A stretch of 64,000 nucleotides of DNA from Neptuniibacter caesariensis (GTDB lineage Bacteria > Pseudomonadota > Gammaproteobacteria > Pseudomonadales > Balneatricaceae): assembly GCF_000153345.1 (NCBI RefSeq), contig NZ_CH724126.1, positions 340,774 through 404,773 on the forward strand, written 5' to 3'. The translations under genes were made by a program, and so were the position numbers. Numbering within the stretch: the first letter of the stretch is position 1; each line of letters starts with the position of its first letter. Below, piece by piece: positions 8,116-15,872 of this stretch. A model generated the notes under the pieces. The model was given only the letters and a program-made list of their open reading frames with translations, was not told where the DNA came from and ran no database searches.

Positions 8116-9297
8116 ATGAGTCAGGATGCAGTAGTTATTGTGAGCGCGGCGCGTACCCCAATGGGCGGTATGATGGGCTCCCTAAGCGATGTTCGTGCAC
8201 CGGATCTGTGTGCAACTGCGATTAAAGCTGCTGTTGAGCGTGCGGGTATTCAGGCAGCAGATGTTGATGAAGTTGTTATGGGTTGTGTACTGCCTGCAGG
8301 CCTTGGCCAGGCACCGGCACGTCAGGCTTCTCGTGCGGCGGGTATTCCGGATGCTGCGGGTTGTACAACCATTAACAAAATGTGCGGCTCAGGTATGAAG
8401 GCCGTTATGCTGGCTCATGATCAGATTCTGGCAGGATCTGCAGACATTATGGTCGCAGGTGGTATGGAGAATATGAGTCAGTCTCCTTACATTCTGCCAA
8501 AAGCGCGTGCGGGTATGCGCATGGGCCACGGTCAGGTTATTGACCATATGTTCTTTGATGGCCTGGAAGACGCCTACGAAGGCGGTCTTATGGGCACTTA
8601 CGCGCAGAAGAGCGCGGATGCTTACAATGTAACCCGTGAATCGATGGATGATTTCGCGATCGGGTCACTAGAGAAAGCGATCTCTGCGATTGAAAAAGGC
8701 GAGTTTGTTGAAGAGATTGCGCCAGTTACGATTAAAACTCGTAAAGGTGAAGTGGTTGTTGATACGGATGAGCAGCCGGGCAATGCGCGCATCGATAAGA
8801 TCCGCAGCCTGAAGCCTGCTTTCAAAAAAGACGGTACGGTAACTGCCGCTAACTCCAGCTCTATCTCTGACGGCGGTTCTGCACTGGTTCTGATGAAAGA
8901 GTCTGAAGCGAAGGCCAAAGGCCTGCAGCCACTGGCACGTATTGTTTCTCACTCAACGCACGCACAGCTACCTGCTGAATTCACGATTGCACCTATTGGC
9001 TCTATCCAGAAAGCACTGGATAAAGCGGGCTGGAGCAAAGACGACGTAGATCTTTTCGAAATCAATGAAGCTTTTGCTGTGGTATCTATGCTAGCGATCA
9101 ACGAGCTGGGCCTGGATGCTGACAAAGTTAACGTTCGCGGTGGAGCTTGTGCACTGGGTCACCCAATCGGTTCCAGTGGTTCCCGCATCATGGTTACGCT
9201 ACTGCATGCATTGAAGCAGAAAGGCCTGAAAAAAGGTGTAGCTTCCCTATGTATCGGTGGTGGTGAAGCGACGGCTGTTGCCGTTGAGATGCTGTAA
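8116..9297 (+). CDS. atoB: Acetyl-CoA C-acetyltransferase (acetoacetyl-CoA thiolase)
   Basis: Degradative-type thiolase of 393 aa, cleaving acetoacetyl-CoA to two acetyl-CoA (reversible). The nucleophile is C90 in NKMCGSGMK; the other catalytic residues are H349 in GHPIGSSG and C379 in CIGGGEA. NEAFAVV is the conserved active-site loop. It starts after AAGGTG. It is monocistronic between a terminator at each end and carries its own LiuR-type operator, which fits the last step of leucine breakdown after acetoacetate activation. It could equally supply acetoacetyl-CoA to the PhaB reductase at 41.7 kb. Confidence 0.92.
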   Translation: MSQDAVVIVSAARTPMGGMMGSLSDVRAPDLCATAIKAAVERAGIQAADVDEVVMGCVLPAGLGQAPARQASRAAGIPDAAGCTTINKMCGSGMKAVMLAHDQILAGSADIMVAGGMENMSQSPYILPKARAGMRMGHGQVIDHMFFDGLEDAYEGGLMGTYAQKSADAYNVTRESMDDFAIGSLEKAISAIEKGEFVEEIAPVTIKTRKGEVVVDTDEQPGNARIDKIRSLKPAFKKDGTVTAANSSSISDGGSALVLMKESEAKAKGLQPLARIVSHSTHAQLPAEFTIAPIGSIQKALDKAGWSKDDVDLFEINEAFAVVSMLAINELGLDADKVNVRGGACALGHPIGSSGSRIMVTLLHALKQKGLKKGVASLCIGGGEATAVAVEML

Positions 9298-9401
9298 AAC
9301 TTTCTGATAGGGGGTTGCCCTTTATACCGGGGCAGCTCATTCAACCGACTTATGGGAGGGGATGTCGCCCCACCTCTAAGGCTCTGTGTTATGGTTGGTT
9401 T

Positions 9402-9428
9402 GCCGGACTCTTTAGTCCGGCTTTTTTT
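9402..9428 (+). terminator. Rho-independent terminator of the thiolase gene
   Basis: GCCGGACT (9402-9409) pairs with AGTCCGGC (9414-9421) across a CTTT loop, followed by seven T residues. Confidence 0.92.
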
Positions 9429-9477
9429 CGCCTATTAAACAGACAATCAGAGAATGGTGGTGAAGAACTGAATTAGG

Positions 9478-9717
9478 TTACAAACAGGTTTTTTCACATT
9501 CCAGTTTGGTTTCAAAGGGAACATTGCCGCCACAACCGCCCCAGATAAACATTTCACAAGATTGCTTTTCTGCATTAAAAAAATACTTTTGAAAAGCTGC
9601 CCTACAGCGTCCTGTTTCGGGTTTATCGCTGCACATAAGGGGCTTCTCTGGTTGTGTATTCGTTTCAATACAACCGATTAGAGAGAGGGTGGTAAGGAGT
9701 AAAATTAACTTTTTCAT
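9478..9717 (-). CDS. Outer-membrane-type lipoprotein with a Kunitz/BPTI protease-inhibitor domain
   Basis: A 79-aa precursor beginning MKKLILLLTTLSLIGC: a lipoprotein signal with lipobox LIGC and lipidated Cys16. The following Ile gives no inner-membrane retention signal. The mature part has six further cysteines at 29, 38, 54, 62, 74 and 78, spaced 8, 15, 7, 11 and 3. This matches the Kunitz (BPTI) pattern (8, 15, 7, 12, 3) except one residue fewer before the fifth cysteine. FIWGGCGGN and YFFNAEKQSC are characteristic Kunitz segments. The residue after the second cysteine, the usual P1 position, is Arg39, predicting a trypsin-like target. I chose the ATG at 9717 because it begins the signal peptide, though no strong ribosome site precedes it. 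Its target and role are unknown; defence against external proteases is a guess. Confidence 0.85.
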   Translation of the reverse strand: MKKLILLLTTLSLIGCIETNTQPEKPLMCSDKPETGRCRAAFQKYFFNAEKQSCEMFIWGGCGGNVPFETKLECEKTCL

Positions 9718-9796
9718 GTGATGAGTATAGCGTGTAACCCAACGGATCTTGACCACATCCTCAGAAAACAATGATGCGGTTATTGGCGCTATGAAG

Positions 9797-10735
9797 TTAG
9801 TTCCATGCATTCAACAGCGGCAACGTTATCCCCAGCGTGATTAATGAACCCAGTGTGGTGAGGAAAATGACGCTGGAAGCCAGTTCAACCCGGGTGTTGT
9901 ACTGTTGCGCCAACACATAAACCATTGAGCCGGTTGGCAGGGCACACATCAGAATGACTGAGGCTGCGAGGAAGGGTTCAAGATCCATCCACAGCACAAT
10001 TCCCAGGGCAATTAATGGGTGCAACACCAGCTTCTGAAAGGCGATCCAGCTGACCTGTAAAACGTTCTCTTTGATACTTAATCCATACAGAGAAAGCCCC
10101 AGTGAGAACAGTGCTACCGGTGCGGCCGAGGGGGCGACCATCTCAAACAGGTTGTAAATCGCTTCAGGAAGACCAATCTGATAATGGGAGATCAGTAGGC
10201 CCAGCGTTGGGGCGAGAATGACCGGGTTTTTAAAGAAGGCTTTGGACAGAAAGGCCCAGATCTTTGCGATTCCTTTCTCGCCACTGTCAGCTAAACCAGA
10301 CACCAGCGCCAGGGCGATAATAAACACGGCGTTGGTGCTGAGGGTCGCAATGACAACCGGGAGTGTGCCTTTATCACCAAACAGGAAATAGGCGATCGGG
10401 ATGCCCATATAGATAGTGTTTGGCCAGCCGGTTGTTAGGGATAAAACCATCAGATCCATAGGCCGTTCAGATTTACGCAGTATATAAGGCGCTAAGGTGA
10501 TCGCCATAATGGCAAAAATGGCGAGGAAAAAAGCCAGGATAAAATCAGCGTTGATAATATCCGCCGCAGGCACCTTTGCGGTTGCCAGGAACAGCATGGG
10601 CGGCACTGCAAAGTAGTAGACGTAATTGTTGAGAATCTTGGCTGCTGATTTGTCCATTATCTCGCTGCGGATCGCAAACCAACCGGCAAAAATAATTGCA
10701 AATACGGGAAGAACAATGTTAATCAGAAGCTGCAT
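9797..10735 (-). CDS. AEC-family (auxin efflux carrier-type) transporter
   Basis: Inner-membrane protein of 312 aa with about ten hydrophobic helices in two halves, starting MQLLINIVLPVFAIIFAGWF. Motifs such as GWPNTIYMGIPIAYFLFG and the C-terminal MCALPTGSMVYVLAQQYN are typical of the AEC/Mem_trans family. Bacterial members carry malate, malonate and related organic anions. No substrate can be assigned. It stands alone, upstream of the Kunitz lipoprotein gene with an 79-bp gap on the same strand. Confidence 0.85.
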   Translation of the reverse strand: MQLLINIVLPVFAIIFAGWFAIRSEIMDKSAAKILNNYVYYFAVPPMLFLATAKVPAADIINADFILAFFLAIFAIMAITLAPYILRKSERPMDLMVLSLTTGWPNTIYMGIPIAYFLFGDKGTLPVVIATLSTNAVFIIALALVSGLADSGEKGIAKIWAFLSKAFFKNPVILAPTLGLLISHYQIGLPEAIYNLFEMVAPSAAPVALFSLGLSLYGLSIKENVLQVSWIAFQKLVLHPLIALGIVLWMDLEPFLAASVILMCALPTGSMVYVLAQQYNTRVELASSVIFLTTLGSLITLGITLPLLNAWN

Positions 10736-10837
10736 GGTGGAACCTGATGGGTAAGGAGGGATCGTCAGCGGCAGTATAGATTTACGGTTGGGTTTACGGA
10801 AGTAACAAGATGTATCTGCGTGTAACCAACTGAATGC

Positions 10838-11248
10838 TTAATCGAATACTTGAATAAACCATTTAGGCTGCATCTGTGAAAAATCCGTACGGATATTCTC
10901 GTCCAGATAGCTTGCTGAATCTAAAACACACGCGCCTGTTTCTGAGCGGATAAATACAACCCAGTGCCAGTAATCCTTGCCGCCTTCCTGGTGATGTTTA
11001 ATCGATAGCAGAGCCTGATCAGGTAGGGCCTCCCATGAAGAAAAAGGAATCTCTTCGGCAGAGGTCTCAACACCTGAATGGGCCAGCAAGTGCCTTACAT
11101 ACTGCGTATCTGACCATAATGAGGTATCCGAGGCATATATGCCCATGGCATTGGCTATCGCTTTCATCTCTGCATAGCTTTTACCAAGTATATTTGCGAC
11201 AGCTGCGATACCGCAGCCGGTTGTTTCTTCCTGAATAACCGGTTTCAT
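10838..11248 (-). CDS. Peptidase C39-like cysteine-protease-fold protein
   Basis: A 136-aa cytoplasmic protein without signal peptide. A papain-like triad is visible: Cys12 in ETTGCGIAAVANIL, His95 in DYWHWVVFI, and Asp110 in ACVLDSAS. This is the arrangement of the peptidase C39 and related papain-like families. AGAGAGTAAG precedes the ATG. It has no ABC transporter or double-glycine peptide nearby, so it is not an obvious bacteriocin maturase. It may process a peptide or be an amidase-like orphan; the substrate is unknown. Confidence 0.7.
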   Translation of the reverse strand: MKPVIQEETTGCGIAAVANILGKSYAEMKAIANAMGIYASDTSLWSDTQYVRHLLAHSGVETSAEEIPFSSWEALPDQALLSIKHHQEGGKDYWHWVVFIRSETGACVLDSASYLDENIRTDFSQMQPKWFIQVFD

Positions 11249-11302
11249 TACTTACTCTCTTATGTCAAATGATCAGCCCCTTACGGCAGAGTTAAACGGC
11301 TG

Positions 11303-12031
11303 TTACATAAGTACCATAGCGATTAAGAATATACCCGCAAACACCGGGATCGCCGAAAGTAACCCTATTCCAAAAGCCTTCCAGTTAGATGCAATTTCGC
11401 CGCCCTTATTCTTGTGGGCGTCAATTGAATCTTTTTGCTGCGATTTAGCAATCATGACCATGGCAAATATCTGCGGGACCGTGAATAGCATATTAGGAAT
11501 GTTGATATCCTGCGGGATCATCATGATTCCGAATAGAAACAAAATGGTTGCGAGAATAGAGTAGAGTATCGTTTTTCGTGCCGACTCAAACCTGCCTAAA
11601 CGGCGCAGATTTATCCACATAATGATCCCGCCTGCCAGAATCGAGCCGAAAAAAGTGGCGATGCCTACCCCTTCAATACTGTAAAGCTTATAGGGTTTAC
11701 TTGCCTCCGGACTCAATTCTGCTTTGGGTGGCGCATATACTGATGCGTTGGATTCTGATTCTTGTGGAGGATGGGTCTCAGGAATATCTTTTTCAGGAGG
11801 AATATCCATAGGACGTATTTCACAGCTAAGGCCGCAACGCTCGATCAGCTTTTTGTATTTTTCGGCAATATCGGAATCGACCCCTTTTTTAACAGTGGTT
11901 TCGGGCTTGCTAAGGAGTTTTTCAATCTTCTGATCGCTGATCTTTAATAAGCGGGCGAGGTTTTGCTTAACTTCAAGCTGAGAGTACTCTTCTGAAATAG
12001 CGTTCTGTAATACCACTTTAAACTGTGACAT
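11303..12031 (-). CDS. Uncharacterised protein: N-terminal L7/L12-like domain, C-terminal membrane segments
   Basis: About 242 aa from the ATG at 12031 (another in-frame ATG at 12037 lies only 3 nt from AAGGG, against 9 nt for 12031). Residues 1-75 read FKVVLQNAISEEYSQLEVKQ, then a run resembling a ribosomal L7/L12 C-terminal-like module (VKQNLARLLKISDQKIEKLL, CGLSCEIRP). A proline-, serine-rich linker (about 75-110) follows. The C-terminal half has about four membrane helices (TFFGSILAGGIIMWI, TILYSILATILFLFGIMM, LFTVPQIFAMVMIA, FGIGLLSAIPVFAGIFLIAM). I know no function for this family. Confidence 0.65.
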   Translation of the reverse strand: MSQFKVVLQNAISEEYSQLEVKQNLARLLKISDQKIEKLLSKPETTVKKGVDSDIAEKYKKLIERCGLSCEIRPMDIPPEKDIPETHPPQESESNASVYAPPKAELSPEASKPYKLYSIEGVGIATFFGSILAGGIIMWINLRRLGRFESARKTILYSILATILFLFGIMMIPQDINIPNMLFTVPQIFAMVMIAKSQQKDSIDAHKNKGGEIASNWKAFGIGLLSAIPVFAGIFLIAMVLM

Positions 12032-12184
12032 CGGCATAATCCCTTATGTTGCGCCTACTTACAGCGCGGTCCTGTTTTCGTTGCGCTTTTCATGACGTTA
12101 CTTCTACTAGAATCCCATGCTTTTGATTCAGTGTCACATCTTTGCAGTGAAATGTAGACGAGTGACAGCATAGCCAGTCAATCA

Positions 12185-12685
12185 TTATGGGAGTTCTAAC
12201 ACACAATCCCTTCGCTCTAATTGAGCGCAAGTCTTACCACGCGCTTTTCTAATCACTTTGATTTTGGCTTTTATCGTTTCTTTTTTATTTTCGTTAGGTT
12301 CTGAACGATAAATCTGCATCACATAATCCAGCATGGTCATCCTTCTGCCGCGATTATCTTCAATGATGTCGTTGGGCGCTAAACCTGCTTTGAAAAGTGC
12401 CTGCACATCATCGTCATGGCCTCTGTAGATAACAAAGTAAATGAGCGAGCGGCCAGAGCAAAGAATGTTGTTTTTGGAATTCTCCCGAAGAAATTCTGCT
12501 GAGCTTTTGTATCTATACTTATCAGTGTATTTCTTGATAAAGCCTAAAGTGCTTTTACCGCTGTTAAGTTGCAGGATGGTCTCGCAGAGAACGACATTTT
12601 CGCCGTAGGCCAGTATGTCTTTTGCAGAAACGCTTAATGAGCAGGACAAGACAAACAATGCTACAAATCCCTTAATTGCATTCAC
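12185..12685 (-). CDS. Secreted hypothetical protein with an ankyrin-like segment
   Basis: A 166-aa protein with an N-terminal signal peptide (MNAIKGFVALFVLSCSLSVS, cleavage near SAKD). The start is GTG at 12685, preceded by GGAAGGGAAGC. Four cysteines follow in the mature chain (two near CETILQ and ILCSGR, two near KTCAQLERRDC), which could form disulfides. The middle, LIYFVIYRGHDDDVQALFKA followed by GLAPNDIIEDNRGRRMTMLD, resembles one ankyrin repeat. It is flanked by unrelated genes. I do not recognise the family. Confidence 0.6.
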   Translation of the reverse strand: MNAIKGFVALFVLSCSLSVSAKDILAYGENVVLCETILQLNSGKSTLGFIKKYTDKYRYKSSAEFLRENSKNNILCSGRSLIYFVIYRGHDDDVQALFKAGLAPNDIIEDNRGRRMTMLDYVMQIYRSEPNENKKETIKAKIKVIRKARGKTCAQLERRDCVLELP

Positions 12686-12978
12686 GCTTCCCTTCCTTAA
12701 AAGACTTTGTGTTAGAAGATTAAACCATCCTAACTAAATCCTTATCACGCATCCAGACGCTCGCGCATAGCTCCTTAAAAAGAGACTGTTTTGCGTTCGC
12801 ATAACCTAAGCATTACGTGGCGCTAGCATGATAGGTTCACAAAAGAGTCCGAATTTAAAACTTAGCGTTTTTTTTGATCTGTTTATTTTTTGACCGCGTA
12901 GCAGGTGAACTTCCCAAGAGTTCCTTTCGAGAAAAGGCACTGCGGTATGGGTGGCTAACTAAACCTGGAGAATTACCC
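12686..12978. promoter_or_regulatory. Divergent intergenic region upstream of the fasciclin gene
   Basis: This 293-bp gap separates the leftward secreted hypothetical from the rightward fasciclin gene. It must hold both promoters. I see T-rich runs (about 12869-12892) but no clear operator, repeat or terminator. Confidence 0.35.
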
Positions 12979-13533
12979 ATGAAATTCATTAAACCTCTGC
13001 TACTGTCCGCTGCACTACTGATCCCATTCTCAGCTCAGGCGGGTGGTCACGGTGATCATTCAAAAAAAATGGCTAATGATATTGTGCATGTAGCCGCTAG
13101 CGCTGAAACCTTCTCTACGCTTGTCGCTGCCGTTAAAGCAGCTGAACTGGTCGATACACTGAAAAGCGCAGGGCCATTTACCGTATTTGCTCCGACCAAT
13201 GATGCTTTCGCTAAACTGCCGGCGGGTACTGTTGAGAGCCTGCTTAAGCCAGAAAATAAAGATAAGTTGGTCGCTGTACTGACCTACCATGTGGTACCAG
13301 GTAAAGTGAGTGCCAGCCAGGTTGTGAATCTGGACAGTGCGGTCACAGTTCAGGGTGATAGCATCGATATTTCTGTGAAAGGTCAGGATGTGATGATCGA
13401 TAATGCCAAAGTGGTGAAAGCCGATATCATGGCTTCCAACGGTATTATTCATGTAATCGATCAAGTGATTTTGCCAAATATGACCCCTAAGACTGCTTAT
13501 CTGGACATGGATAAAGTCAATCCAATTCGGTAA
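12979..13533 (+). CDS. Secreted fasciclin (FAS1) domain protein
   Basis: A 184-aa exported protein. The start at 12979 ([20 protein letters not shown]) gives a clean signal peptide ending at AQA and has GGAG 8 nt upstream; a longer in-frame reading upstream lacks both. One FAS1 domain covers residues 35-170, with the two conserved boxes [15 protein letters not shown] and [13 protein letters not shown] and the central YHVVPGK motif. A His-rich GGHGDHSKK follows the signal peptide. FAS1 proteins act in adhesion at the surface or in the periplasm; no specific partner is visible. Confidence 0.9.
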
Positions 13534-13570
13534 GTGCCAACAAGCTCACCCACACCGGATTATCCTTTAA

Positions 13571-13605
13571 AATTGCGCCTTTACACATGTTGTAATGGCG
13601 CAATT
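13571..13605 (+). terminator. Hairpin terminator after the fasciclin gene
   Basis: AATTGCGCC (13571-13579) pairs with GGCGCAATT (13597-13605). A nested TTACA/TGTAA stem lies in the loop, and GAGTTTTG follows. The U-tract is weak. Confidence 0.6.
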
Positions 13606-13649
13606 GAGTTTTGATCAGAATTCAGCCGCGTAGCGGCGTCCTGCCACCC

Positions 13650-13843
13650 CTAACTCCGATATGGATAAGCCCCGGTCCGCATCTTCCGGTACTGACTGGG
13701 CGATACCCCCATCAGTTTTTTCAATATCCGCGAGAAGTAGTAGGCACCTTCATAGCCCGCCGCGTTCTATCTTGGGCTGGATAAAGTGGTAAATCGGTGT
13801 CGTAGCAGTCACCTTTTGTGCTTCTCAACGAAGTGCTATTTTA
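13650..13843 (-). pseudogene. Decayed 3' fragment of an AraC-family gene (paralogue of mmsR)
   Basis: Minus-strand translation ends in YYFSRILKKLMGVSPSQYRK followed by MRTGAYPYRS and a TAG stop at 13650-13652. This is nearly the C-terminus of the intact AraC-family protein encoded at 14955-15872. Upstream, further matches (HFVEKHK, VTATTPIYHFIQPKIER) are interrupted by a stop codon replacing the parent's Tyr, a one-base deletion, and loss of about 60 bp relative to the parent. No N-terminal part remains. It lies just downstream of the PAP2 gene in the same orientation as the parent. Confidence 0.85.
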
Positions 13844-13893
13844 AAGGCTAACTCAGCTAAGAAAGGATCAACGAAAATCAGAAACTGCCATTG

Positions 13894-14700
13894 CTAATTG
13901 TTGGCCTTAGCGATGCGGCTAATCAGTTTTATGTTAATGAACCAGGCTAGCAGGCCAAGCATTAATCCTTGCAGCGCTCCGATCAGTACGTCCATTGGGG
14001 TATGGACGCCTAGTAAGGGTCTTGAGATGCAGACTGCCAGTGCCCAGGGTAATAAGCTATACAGTAGCCAATAGCGTTTACTGCTGATGAGGGACGCTCC
14101 AAGCATCAGCATAAAACTGGCAAAAAACATGGCCGAAAAAGAATGTCCGGAAGGAAAGGAGTAGCCGGTTTCATGAGCCCAGTGCTTTTTAATTAAAGGG
14201 GTTAATGGGACCATCTCCGCATGTTGAGTTAGTACTCGGGCGAGCATCGTGCGTCGAACCTCTTTGTCTCCCTGTGCATAGAACGCATCGGCGCTCATCC
14301 CTAAAGGTCCCTTACCGTCTTCCCCTGCTAGCCAGACAATATTGGGTCGGGGGCTTTGTAACTGCGTTTTGATAATGTGCTCATTCAATAACGCGCCTCC
14401 TCCCGCCAGAACGGAGGTTAGACTAATCACAGTGACGGTTTCTTTTATCTTCTGGGTCAAAGGCATCTTTTGTCTGCTGAGTAGCAGGGCTATTACCAAT
14501 AATACTATCGCTGGAACTCCGTATTTTCCCGACTCAGAGATCAGATAGATAATATCCATATAGGATGCTGAAAGGTCTAAATAGGGTGGGGTGCTCTGGT
14601 TAGATACGGGTAGCAGAAAGCTGAGAAGTAACAATAGCCAAGTAAGCAGAAGCGGGAGTAGAGCACGATAGCGCAGGGGCGATTTTGTCGAGAGAGTCAT
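13894..14700 (-). CDS. PAP2-family membrane phosphatase
   Basis: Integral membrane protein of 268 aa with about six hydrophobic segments. All three catalytic motifs are present: KTQLQSPRP (K-x6-RP), FPSGHSFSA (PSGH) and SRPLLGVHTPMD (SR-x5-H-x3-D). Such enzymes dephosphorylate lipid phosphates such as undecaprenyl pyrophosphate or phosphatidic acid on the periplasmic face. The substrate is not predictable. The gene is bracketed by an intact AraC gene and a decayed copy of that gene's 3' end, both in the same direction. Confidence 0.88.
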   Translation of the reverse strand: MTLSTKSPLRYRALLPLLLTWLLLLLSFLLPVSNQSTPPYLDLSASYMDIIYLISESGKYGVPAIVLLVIALLLSRQKMPLTQKIKETVTVISLTSVLAGGGALLNEHIIKTQLQSPRPNIVWLAGEDGKGPLGMSADAFYAQGDKEVRRTMLARVLTQHAEMVPLTPLIKKHWAHETGYSFPSGHSFSAMFFASFMLMLGASLISSKRYWLLYSLLPWALAVCISRPLLGVHTPMDVLIGALQGLMLGLLAWFINIKLISRIAKANN

Positions 14701-14890
14701 GACTTAATTATTTCCATATACATTCGGCCGGGCTCTTAGCCTGCCGGTTATCCATAGTGGGCAGTTACCATTTAACGCACTATTGTTTTAGCGCCTTGTT
14801 AAATTATTGCCCTTCGTGCTGTTACCCGTGATCTCCTAGGTAATACTTATACTGCCATACCTGAAATTTGCTTTGAACCGTCTTTCCTCT

Positions 14891-14923
14891 AGCTGCGAAG
14901 AGGCGTGCTAGCCACTCGCAGCT
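14891..14923 (-). other. Inverted repeat downstream of mmsR
   Basis: AGCTGCGA (14891-14898) and TCGCAGCT (14916-14923) form an 8-bp stem with a 17-nt loop just past the mmsR stop. There is no U-tract on the minus strand. It may mark the 3' end of the mmsR transcript. Confidence 0.4.
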
Positions 14924-14954
14924 GCGGACTGTTCTAAAACGAGGCGGTCTGTTC

Positions 14955-15872
14955 TTACTCACTCTTATATGGGAATGCCCCGGTCCGCATCTTCCGGTAC
15001 TGACTCGGTGATACCCCCATCAGCTTTTTAAAGATCCTCGAAAAGTAATAGGCATCTTCGTACCCCACCGCAAAGGCAACCTCATTAATACCGTTATTAG
15101 TGGTATCAAGCAGGTGGCAGGCACGTTCGATTTTAAGCTGAATAAAGTGGTTGATCGGGGTGGTGCCGGTCACCTCTTTGTATTTTTTCACAAAGTGATA
15201 TTTCGACAGACTGATCGATTCAGCCAGGGTATCCAGGTCGAGTTGCTCGTGGATATGGGTCTGCATCAGGCTGTGAACACGCTCAATATCCAGGCCGCCG
15301 CGCGACTGTTTCTGTTTAGCCAGCGGTTGCAGCAGTGCGATATGGCTGAGGATCTGGCGCAGCTGGTTGGCAGCGCAGATATAAGCGTTGAGGTTATAGG
15401 TGGATTCACGGGCTTCCAGCAGTGCTTCAAAGTCGCTGGCGAGGCGAGAATGGATGCCGATCGGCATCACATAGCGGCGCTGGTTACTCTCTCGTTGCTG
15501 TAAATGCTGGGCGAAATCCTCGGCATGATGACCATGAAAGTGCACCCAATAGATAGTCCATGGTTTACGTTTACGTGCCTGATAAGTGTGTGATACCCCT
15601 TTTGGAATCAACAATATGTCACCAGAACGAATGCGGGTTTTCTGTCCATCGATCACCGCTTCACCTTCACCGTCCAGACAATATATTAGCAAATTGTCAT
15701 CATGTTCCTGGCGTTCCATCTGGTGACCACTGGCCTGACGATAGTAGCCCATCCCCAGCGGATATAGGCCCTGGCTCAATGGATGCAGCGCTAACTCACT
15801 GATTACGCGGCGTGGAATTACGAAGCGAATACTCTCAGGTGGCAGGGGCCAGTTAGACGGTGAGCTCATCAA
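14955..15872 (-). CDS. mmsR: AraC-family regulator, MmsR-type activator of valine catabolism
   Basis: A 305-aa AraC-family protein. The N-terminal cupin-like sensor domain (about 30-160) includes ILLIPKGVSHTYQARKRKPW; the C-terminal pair of helix-turn-helices (about 200-300) includes LAESISLSKYHFVKKYKEVT and VAFAVGYEDAYYFSRIFKKL. It is divergent from mmsA, as mmsR is in Pseudomonas, where it activates the mmsAB operon. Assignment to that role rests on the position and family, since AraC sequence alone does not give the inducer. A degenerate copy of its 3' end lies at 13650-13843. Confidence 0.82.
   Translation of the reverse strand: MMSSPSNWPLPPESIRFVIPRRVISELALHPLSQGLYPLGMGYYRQASGHQMERQEHDDNLLIYCLDGEGEAVIDGQKTRIRSGDILLIPKGVSHTYQARKRKPWTIYWVHFHGHHAEDFAQHLQQRESNQRRYVMPIGIHSRLASDFEALLEARESTYNLNAYICAANQLRQILSHIALLQPLAKQKQSRGGLDIERVHSLMQTHIHEQLDLDTLAESISLSKYHFVKKYKEVTGTTPINHFIQLKIERACHLLDTTNNGINEVAFAVGYEDAYYFSRIFKKLMGVSPSQYRKMRTGAFPYKSE

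Follow-up and report, generated by a model that had tools for sequence, protein, structure and literature searches.

Positions 9478 to 9717 of the window (the whole 64-kb stretch of DNA that was analysed) carry a small gene for a 79-residue protein composed of a LIGC lipoprotein-type signal, a 12-residue linker and a single Kunitz/BPTI domain (Cys29-Cys78), with cysteines at positions 16 (lipobox), 29, 38, 54, 62, 74 and 78. An earlier note on this DNA had described the ORF at these coordinates without naming a strand; that description holds, and the gene is on the minus strand; over the same bases, plus-strand frame 1 is interrupted by stops and the ORF list contains no plus-strand ORF of at least 60 residues. 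The features of the locus are as follows.

9402 to 9421, plus strand: terminator-like hairpin after the thiolase gene (sequence scan)
9428 to 14957, no strand assigned: segment between the thiolase gene and araC, edges approximate, absent at this place in three congeners
9478 to 9717, minus strand: Kunitz lipoprotein gene, 79 codons and a stop (translation, PF00014)
9484 to 9633, minus strand: Kunitz/BPTI domain, Cys29 to Cys78 (PF00014 match to residues 28-78, Foldseek)
9514 to 9543, minus strand: signature WGGCGGNVPF, with Trp at BPTI position 35 and one residue fewer between cysteines 4 and 5 (alignments)
9601 to 9603, minus strand: Arg39 codon, the predicted P1 position in the reactive loop (alignments of relatives and of PDB sequences)
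9670 to 9672, minus strand: Cys16, predicted lipidation site, with Ile as the +2 residue (translation)
9673 to 9717, minus strand: predicted lipoprotein signal peptide, residues 1-15 (MKKLILLLTTLSLIG), before the lipobox Cys16 (translation, LIGC pattern match)
13650 to 13763, minus strand: within the segment, an extra araC-type 3' end, 84% identical to that of the resident gene

The start at 9717 is preferred to ATG 9810, which opens a longer frame of 110 residues, because the longer frame would bury the signal peptide. There is no obvious Shine-Dalgarno sequence upstream of ATG 9717, and a scan of 9200-10900 for sigma-70-like promoters found 0, against 2.0 expected by chance. The GC content of the gene is 0.40, compared with 0.485 for the whole window. 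Under the rules for bacterial signal peptides, MKKLILLLTTLSLIG-C contains a basic n-region, a hydrophobic stretch and a lipobox cysteine, and the protein is probably lipid anchored. According to the Lol sorting rule of E. coli, a +2 residue other than Asp fits placement in the outer membrane; since this residue is Ile, the outer membrane is the predicted and most likely location of the lipoprotein.

The gene belongs to a segment of approximately 5.5 kb that also contains an AEC-type transporter, three uncharacterised ORFs, a fasciclin-domain protein and a PAP2 protein, whereas approximately 150 bp lie between the thiolase gene and araC in the congener G010. In the three congeners compared (G009, G010 and G001, seven others having no long match over the junction), homology spans the thiolase gene, stops at 9427 in two of them and at 9298 in the third, and resumes at the araC 3' end; G009 and G001 carry different ORFs at this site. 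The extra copy of the araC 3' end, which is 81-87% identical to the araC 3' ends of the same three congeners, looks as if the segment, or part of it, came with its own right border. In a DNA search the adjoining transporter gene was found in 1 of 11 genomes, its own, and in a larger search 400 bases of the transporter region had matches elsewhere in G009 and G010. None of the genes beside the Kunitz gene has a Pfam protease match over the cut-off, and a 136-residue ORF at 10838-11248 resembles the C39 peptidase family below the cut-off only. PADLOC returned no match for seven proteins of the segment, and Rfam returned none across the window.

The earlier note had proposed a Kunitz/BPTI domain on a lipoprotein, with cysteines spaced 8-15-7-11-3 and a FIWGGCGGN motif. 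Both the spacing (of the last six cysteines) and the motif are present in the translation, and Pfam, PDB sequence searching, structure prediction and fold searching agree on the domain. The PF00014 match (MEROPS family I2) scores 57.1 bits (E 2.1e-15), well over the curated Pfam cut-off of 21; it is the sole PF00014 match in the source genome, and the same search gave zero matches in 14 control genomes. At E<=0.1 Pfam assigned the protein to PF00014 alone, the ecotin profile being unmatched, and NCBIfam gave no match. Ecotin, the dimeric periplasmic envelope inhibitor of trypsin-like proteases in Gram-negative bacteria, has a similar role but another fold and no relation to the Kunitz protein. 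A phmmer search of the PDB found 117 distinct sequences at E<=0.001, mostly carrying protease-inhibitor names; the best match, at E 1.9e-27, is a three-domain chain, of which the best single domain reaches 7.7e-10. An AlphaFold2 model built from a 15-row alignment (mean pLDDT 76.6, pTM 0.54; means of ten-residue blocks over residues 31-79 of 75, 89, 89, 77 and 90) contains a hairpin (42-48/53-59) and a C-terminal helix (71-78). Foldseek matched this model to 78 structures at E<=0.001. The 50 matches listed are Kunitz proteins, by description for all but a few, mostly with an rmsd of 1.2-1.8 A (3.4-4.2 A for three), and the best PDB matches among those listed are TFPI K1, APP and other BPTI-type domains. 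All six domain cysteines align with those of known Kunitz domains in the alignments of PDB sequences and of relatives; the pairing of disulfides expected for this family would be 1-6, 2-4, 3-5. Overall, a Kunitz/BPTI fold appears virtually certain.

The protein thus resembles classical Kunitz/BPTI proteins such as BPTI, TFPI and APP in its Pfam match, its six cysteines and its predicted fold and, by alignment, in P1 Arg, P1' Ala, Gly12, Gly36, Gly37 and Phe33. It differs from them in having 11 rather than 12 residues between cysteines 4 and 5, Trp35, and Val-Pro-Phe before cysteine 5, and from the animal proteins in being prokaryotic and in its lipoprotein-type anchor. Shortening of segment 39-45 leaves no counterpart of BPTI Asn43, and P3 is Arg, compared with Pro in BPTI. 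Presumably the protein would fail the PROSITE Kunitz pattern, given its spacing of 11. The spacing of 12, usual in the family, plays no part in the Pfam cut-off; because it is absent here, we file the protein in a prokaryotic variant branch and not as a canonical member.

A scan of genome contigs for WGGCxGxVPF found 218 stretches, 215 of which encode relatives, and 80 of these were retained as loci; a single-sequence scan of the genome contigs with the Kunitz protein gave no match. The retained loci carry bacterial labels from Pseudomonadota, Bacteroidota, Campylobacterota, Myxococcota, Thermodesulfobacteriota, Spirochaetota, Fidelibacterota and Methylomirabilota, and two archaeal groups are also represented; many of these relatives come from MAGs, where misbinned contigs are possible. 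No mobile carrier is indicated, since no relative was found on viral contigs, plasmids or phages. PF00014 was found in 1/11 genomes of the genus, 1/116 of the family, 16/390 of the order (one of them, L016, a weak match with stops and probably spurious), 4/369 of the class and 3/398 of the phylum, samples that overlap and each include the window's own genome, and in 5/296 genomes of Bacteroidota, among them the centre genome G1199 already found by the signature scan. The view that Kunitz domains are uncommon in bacteria is upheld by frequencies such as 1/116, 16/390 and 5/296 but fails in Alcanivoracaceae, where 38/46 genomes have a match. Kunitz lipoproteins of Alcanivorax and Alloalcanivorax (L021, L027, L047, L050) share with the window protein a similar size, a lipobox followed by one Kunitz domain, and the signature. 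Adjoining ORFs formed a BLAST cluster in 24/80 scan loci, and the member that was read (L050) is a DUF2057 lipoprotein; unlike the Alcanivoracaceae genes, which are common, the window gene is lone and at another site.

Among 93 distinct domains fitting a cysteine pattern that allowed 9-14 residues in the fourth interval and required 8 and 15 in the first two and Gly12, the fourth interval is 11 in 93/93 and Trp35 is present in 92/93; for the 80 scan loci both follow by construction, as these loci were selected by WGGCxGxVPF. A fairer test of spacing is given by loci found with PF00014 and without selection for the signature. Of 45 such loci, 41 were read by script, 40 having a spacing of 11 (one of these, L110, sits in G1199, a genome picked via the signature scan) and one (L130) a spacing of 10. 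The remaining four comprise L150 (signature, 11), L131 (10), L132 (a broken frame with a VPF-type piece) and the probably spurious L016. Trp35 is present in 39/41 of the Pfam-found domains read. Eight Alcanivoracaceae matches have no locus; those of G270, G221 and G404 were read and the other five lie outside the spacing count. The canonical 12 residues between cysteines 4 and 5 were not seen in any prokaryotic domain read. Judged by eye, all 60 listed PDB chains, most of them with animal names, align longer than the prokaryotic profile, two chains by two residues and the others by one, so that the missing residue separates the prokaryotic domains read from the solved ones listed. The short interval that the earlier note had remarked on is indeed one residue below 12, but it is no peculiarity of this protein, being shared by nearly all prokaryotic domains read.

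Some variation was also observed. In L130 and L131 (Bacteroidota) the first cysteine interval is 9 residues long and the fourth is 10, and the motif is SGCSQxGFAT. This divergent subtype, possibly a second prokaryotic branch, is invisible to the 93-domain pattern because that pattern requires 8, 15 and Gly12. In 11/93 distinct domains the last cysteine interval is cut to two residues, which shortens the C-terminal helix turn in an unusual way; the loci concerned include L053, L057, L060, L061, L074, L086, L098, L099 and L129. A strict lipobox regular expression matched the proteins of 55/93 distinct domains, missing some lipoboxes that are visible by eye.

Arg39 immediately follows the second domain cysteine, and alignment with known Kunitz domains bears out its assignment to the P1 place. 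The reactive-loop set of Gly12, P1 and P1' is present as G36, R39 and A40 of the protein. Across the 93 distinct domains, P1 is Lys in 36, Arg in 35, Phe in 7, Glu in 6, Leu in 4, Asp in 3 and Gln in 2, and is thus basic in 71; P1' is Ala in 83 and Gly in 10. Both positions lie outside all selection patterns, whereas Gly12 is required by the pattern. A basic P1 is found in 42/43 Pseudomonadota domains (own, same order, class, phylum and named rows) and in 13/32 rows labelled Bacteroidota, which account for 19 of the 22 domains with a non-basic P1. Because of these 22/93 domains, the signature branch taken together does not count as a single family of trypsin inhibitors. For 31 domains of the Alcanivoracaceae type, the 293/465 pairs with 0.05<dS<1.5 (the remaining pairs being dropped) give a median dN/dS of 0.29 and no value above 1.

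Several relatives place the domain beside other inhibitor domains, an architecture that points to protease inhibition as its role. A Nitrosopumilaceae MAG (JANQNN010000012.1) contains a single ORF (L028:4812-6338; GC 0.355, compared with 0.33 for the surrounding piece) with a signal-like N-terminus, in which a Kunitz domain bearing the signature is joined to a complete serpin domain (404.7 bits). On one Methanophagales MAG contig, Kunitz is followed by six Kazal domains in one ORF (L097:135-1466), and on a second Methanophagales contig (L091) a Kunitz ORF is followed by one with four Kazal motifs. The Kazal motif was found in 4/80 scan loci, compared with 0/80 of the same loci reversed. In a Flavobacteriales locus (L062:5010-6462), one protein joins Kunitz to an FBA (F-box associated) domain and a Por secretion tail, and its gene is directly followed by a small gene for a Kazal-domain lipoprotein-like protein; L080 likewise has the Kazal motif. 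A Saprospiraceae MAG (L096:4818-5852) has six tandem Kunitz domains, all with a spacing of 11, with Lys, Glu, Lys, Glu, Lys and Arg at P1. Separately, in L036, L086, L034 and L092 (Thermodesulfobacteriota and Alphaproteobacteria MAGs) the domain is found within the C-terminal half of longer exported proteins that start alike, the one of L036 matching DUF2330, and L046, L064, L074 and L090 are alike just before the Kunitz domain.

By domain score the closest relatives of the window domain are prokaryotic, with 31/50 identical residues in Alcanivorax limicola and 23 in the best of nine animal domains tried; identity to nine Alcanivoracaceae alignment rows is 42-47%. In a maximum-likelihood tree the 9 animal domains split from the 93 prokaryotic ones at 98/97 when all columns are used, few as the animal rows are and preselected by WGGCxGxVPF as the 80 scan loci are. 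The split was not recovered without the signature columns (3 changes; 0% of bootstrap trees with 1), and the separateness therefore rests on the signature and spacing and not on the other 43 columns. The window domain groups with two Campylobacterota MAG sequences at 97/81, from 50 columns, and in a control tree its smallest starred set comprises 5 rows at 98/88. A single origin of the signature branch is likely, within a comparison whose eukaryotic side was drawn from the PDB; the domain may have passed from animals to prokaryotes or the other way, or both groups may have inherited it from a shared ancestor. The domain does not look like a recent animal gift, its nearest relatives among those compared being prokaryotic, and the gene was probably acquired, with a prokaryote as the probable donor in view of the prokaryotic best matches, the deletion and Trp35.

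In the open-access literature searched, which leaves most subscription papers outside, PMC11511053 is the only paper found on a bacterial Kunitz protein. It describes F6W77, a protein reported from an Acinetobacter baumannii record that starts with an ordinary signal peptide and has five tandem Kunitz domains. Of the five recombinant domains, the three with Arg at P1 are reported to affect the intrinsic coagulation pathway; KABP1 inhibits factor XIa with a Ki of 12.4 nM and factor Xa with one of 7.1 nM, and inhibition by the best domain is mixed and not purely competitive. Transfer from host animals is suggested by the authors. By that description, the window protein is like F6W77 in being a P1 Arg Kunitz protein from a bacterial record and unlike it in having one domain and a lipoprotein-type signal. 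The word 'Kunitz' is absent from the main text of PMC7848895 and, by text count, from PMC6790972. The same searches of open-access literature found no description of the prokaryotic signature or of archaeal Kunitz fusions and no published case of inhibition by a signature-branch member. A bacterial Kunitz protein was thus already known; the signature branch and the archaeal fusions did not appear in the literature searched.

The Kunitz protein is real and well conserved and is most likely an inhibitor, belonging to a prokaryotic variant of a known domain. It would be a small exported lipoprotein that holds a single Kunitz domain on a short linker at the cell envelope, likely at the outer membrane, where it would probably inhibit serine proteases of the trypsin-like S1A type in the usual Kunitz manner: Arg39, presented in a rigid disulfide-pinned loop, would enter the S1 pocket and be cut very slowly, so that the enzyme stays blocked. 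The likely targets would be exogenous enzymes, whether of grazing or predatory organisms, of hosts or of rival microbes, and anchoring by lipid would keep the shield on the cell. We regard an active trypsin-type inhibitor as quite probable. An exogenous target, judged from gene counts, is the guess that we moderately favour. The own genome has two PF00089 matches, both of HtrA/Deg type by sequence reading, and HtrA/Deg proteases do not favour Arg or Lys at P1. Because the Kunitz gene is alone in its genus (1/11) and its genome lacks a trypsin-like PF00089 enzyme at threshold, a foreign target is the better guess. Regulation of an own envelope or secreted protease seems unlikely to us on the same grounds, as each of the ten congeners likewise has two or three PF00089 matches, the range across 11/11 genomes, and no adjoining protease passes the Pfam cut-off, PF00089 being the protease family searched genome-wide. 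In its favour, PMC6790972 proposes that the serpins of sponge archaea may keep the cell's secreted endopeptidases in check, in addition to acting on host proteases.

Binding to something other than a protease (adhesion, channel block or ligand capture, as in some animal Kunitz proteins) would accommodate the 22/93 domains with non-basic P1 and the channel-blocking members among the fold-search matches, but P1' is Ala or Gly in 93/93, relatives are fused to serpin or Kazal domains and the window loop retains Arg-Ala at P1-P1', and we consider such a role improbable. Nor do we think it at all probable that the gene is a hardly expressed passenger, a relic in a variable island: the site is variable, its content differing in the three congeners compared, and neither a Shine-Dalgarno sequence nor a promoter match was seen, but the frame is intact and the six cysteines and P1-P1' residues are kept. 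That a host-associated bacterium recently took up an animal gene, perhaps without function in its new setting, would fit the occurrence in 1/116 family genomes, the low GC content and the segment missing from three congeners; it is very improbable given that the best domain-score matches are prokaryotic, that the window domain carries the prokaryotic deletion and Trp35, and that the listed PDB chains are longer. Against the main reading weigh the mixed inhibition reported in PMC11511053, the non-basic P1 of 22/93 domains, Arg at P3, the loss of the Asn43 position, the lack of a visible Shine-Dalgarno sequence or promoter, the gene's lone occurrence in its genus and the lack of an adjoining gene with a Pfam protease match above threshold. 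Overall, a surface-anchored inhibitor of exogenous trypsin-like proteases is the best explanation and one that we hold with reasonable, if limited, confidence.

More tentatively, and as a reading that we hold to be less likely than not, we suggest a native prokaryotic Kunitz lineage, defined by one deletion and Trp35-Val-Pro-Phe and separate from the animal domains, to which it may be sister or even ancestral. Together with Kazal and serpin domains it might serve bacteria and archaea as a general set of extracellular antiproteases, of which the window gene would be a lipid-anchored member moved by horizontal transfer. Kunitz domains are usually discussed in connection with animals; with the signature present across many bacterial phyla and on archaeal contigs, and no canonical spacing read, the origin of the domain becomes testable. 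The protein also raises the question of whether cell-surface antiproteases of prokaryotes serve as protection against foreign trypsin-like enzymes. Its main interest lies in the breadth of the variant and in what that breadth says about where Kunitz inhibitors outside animals came from and how they are used.
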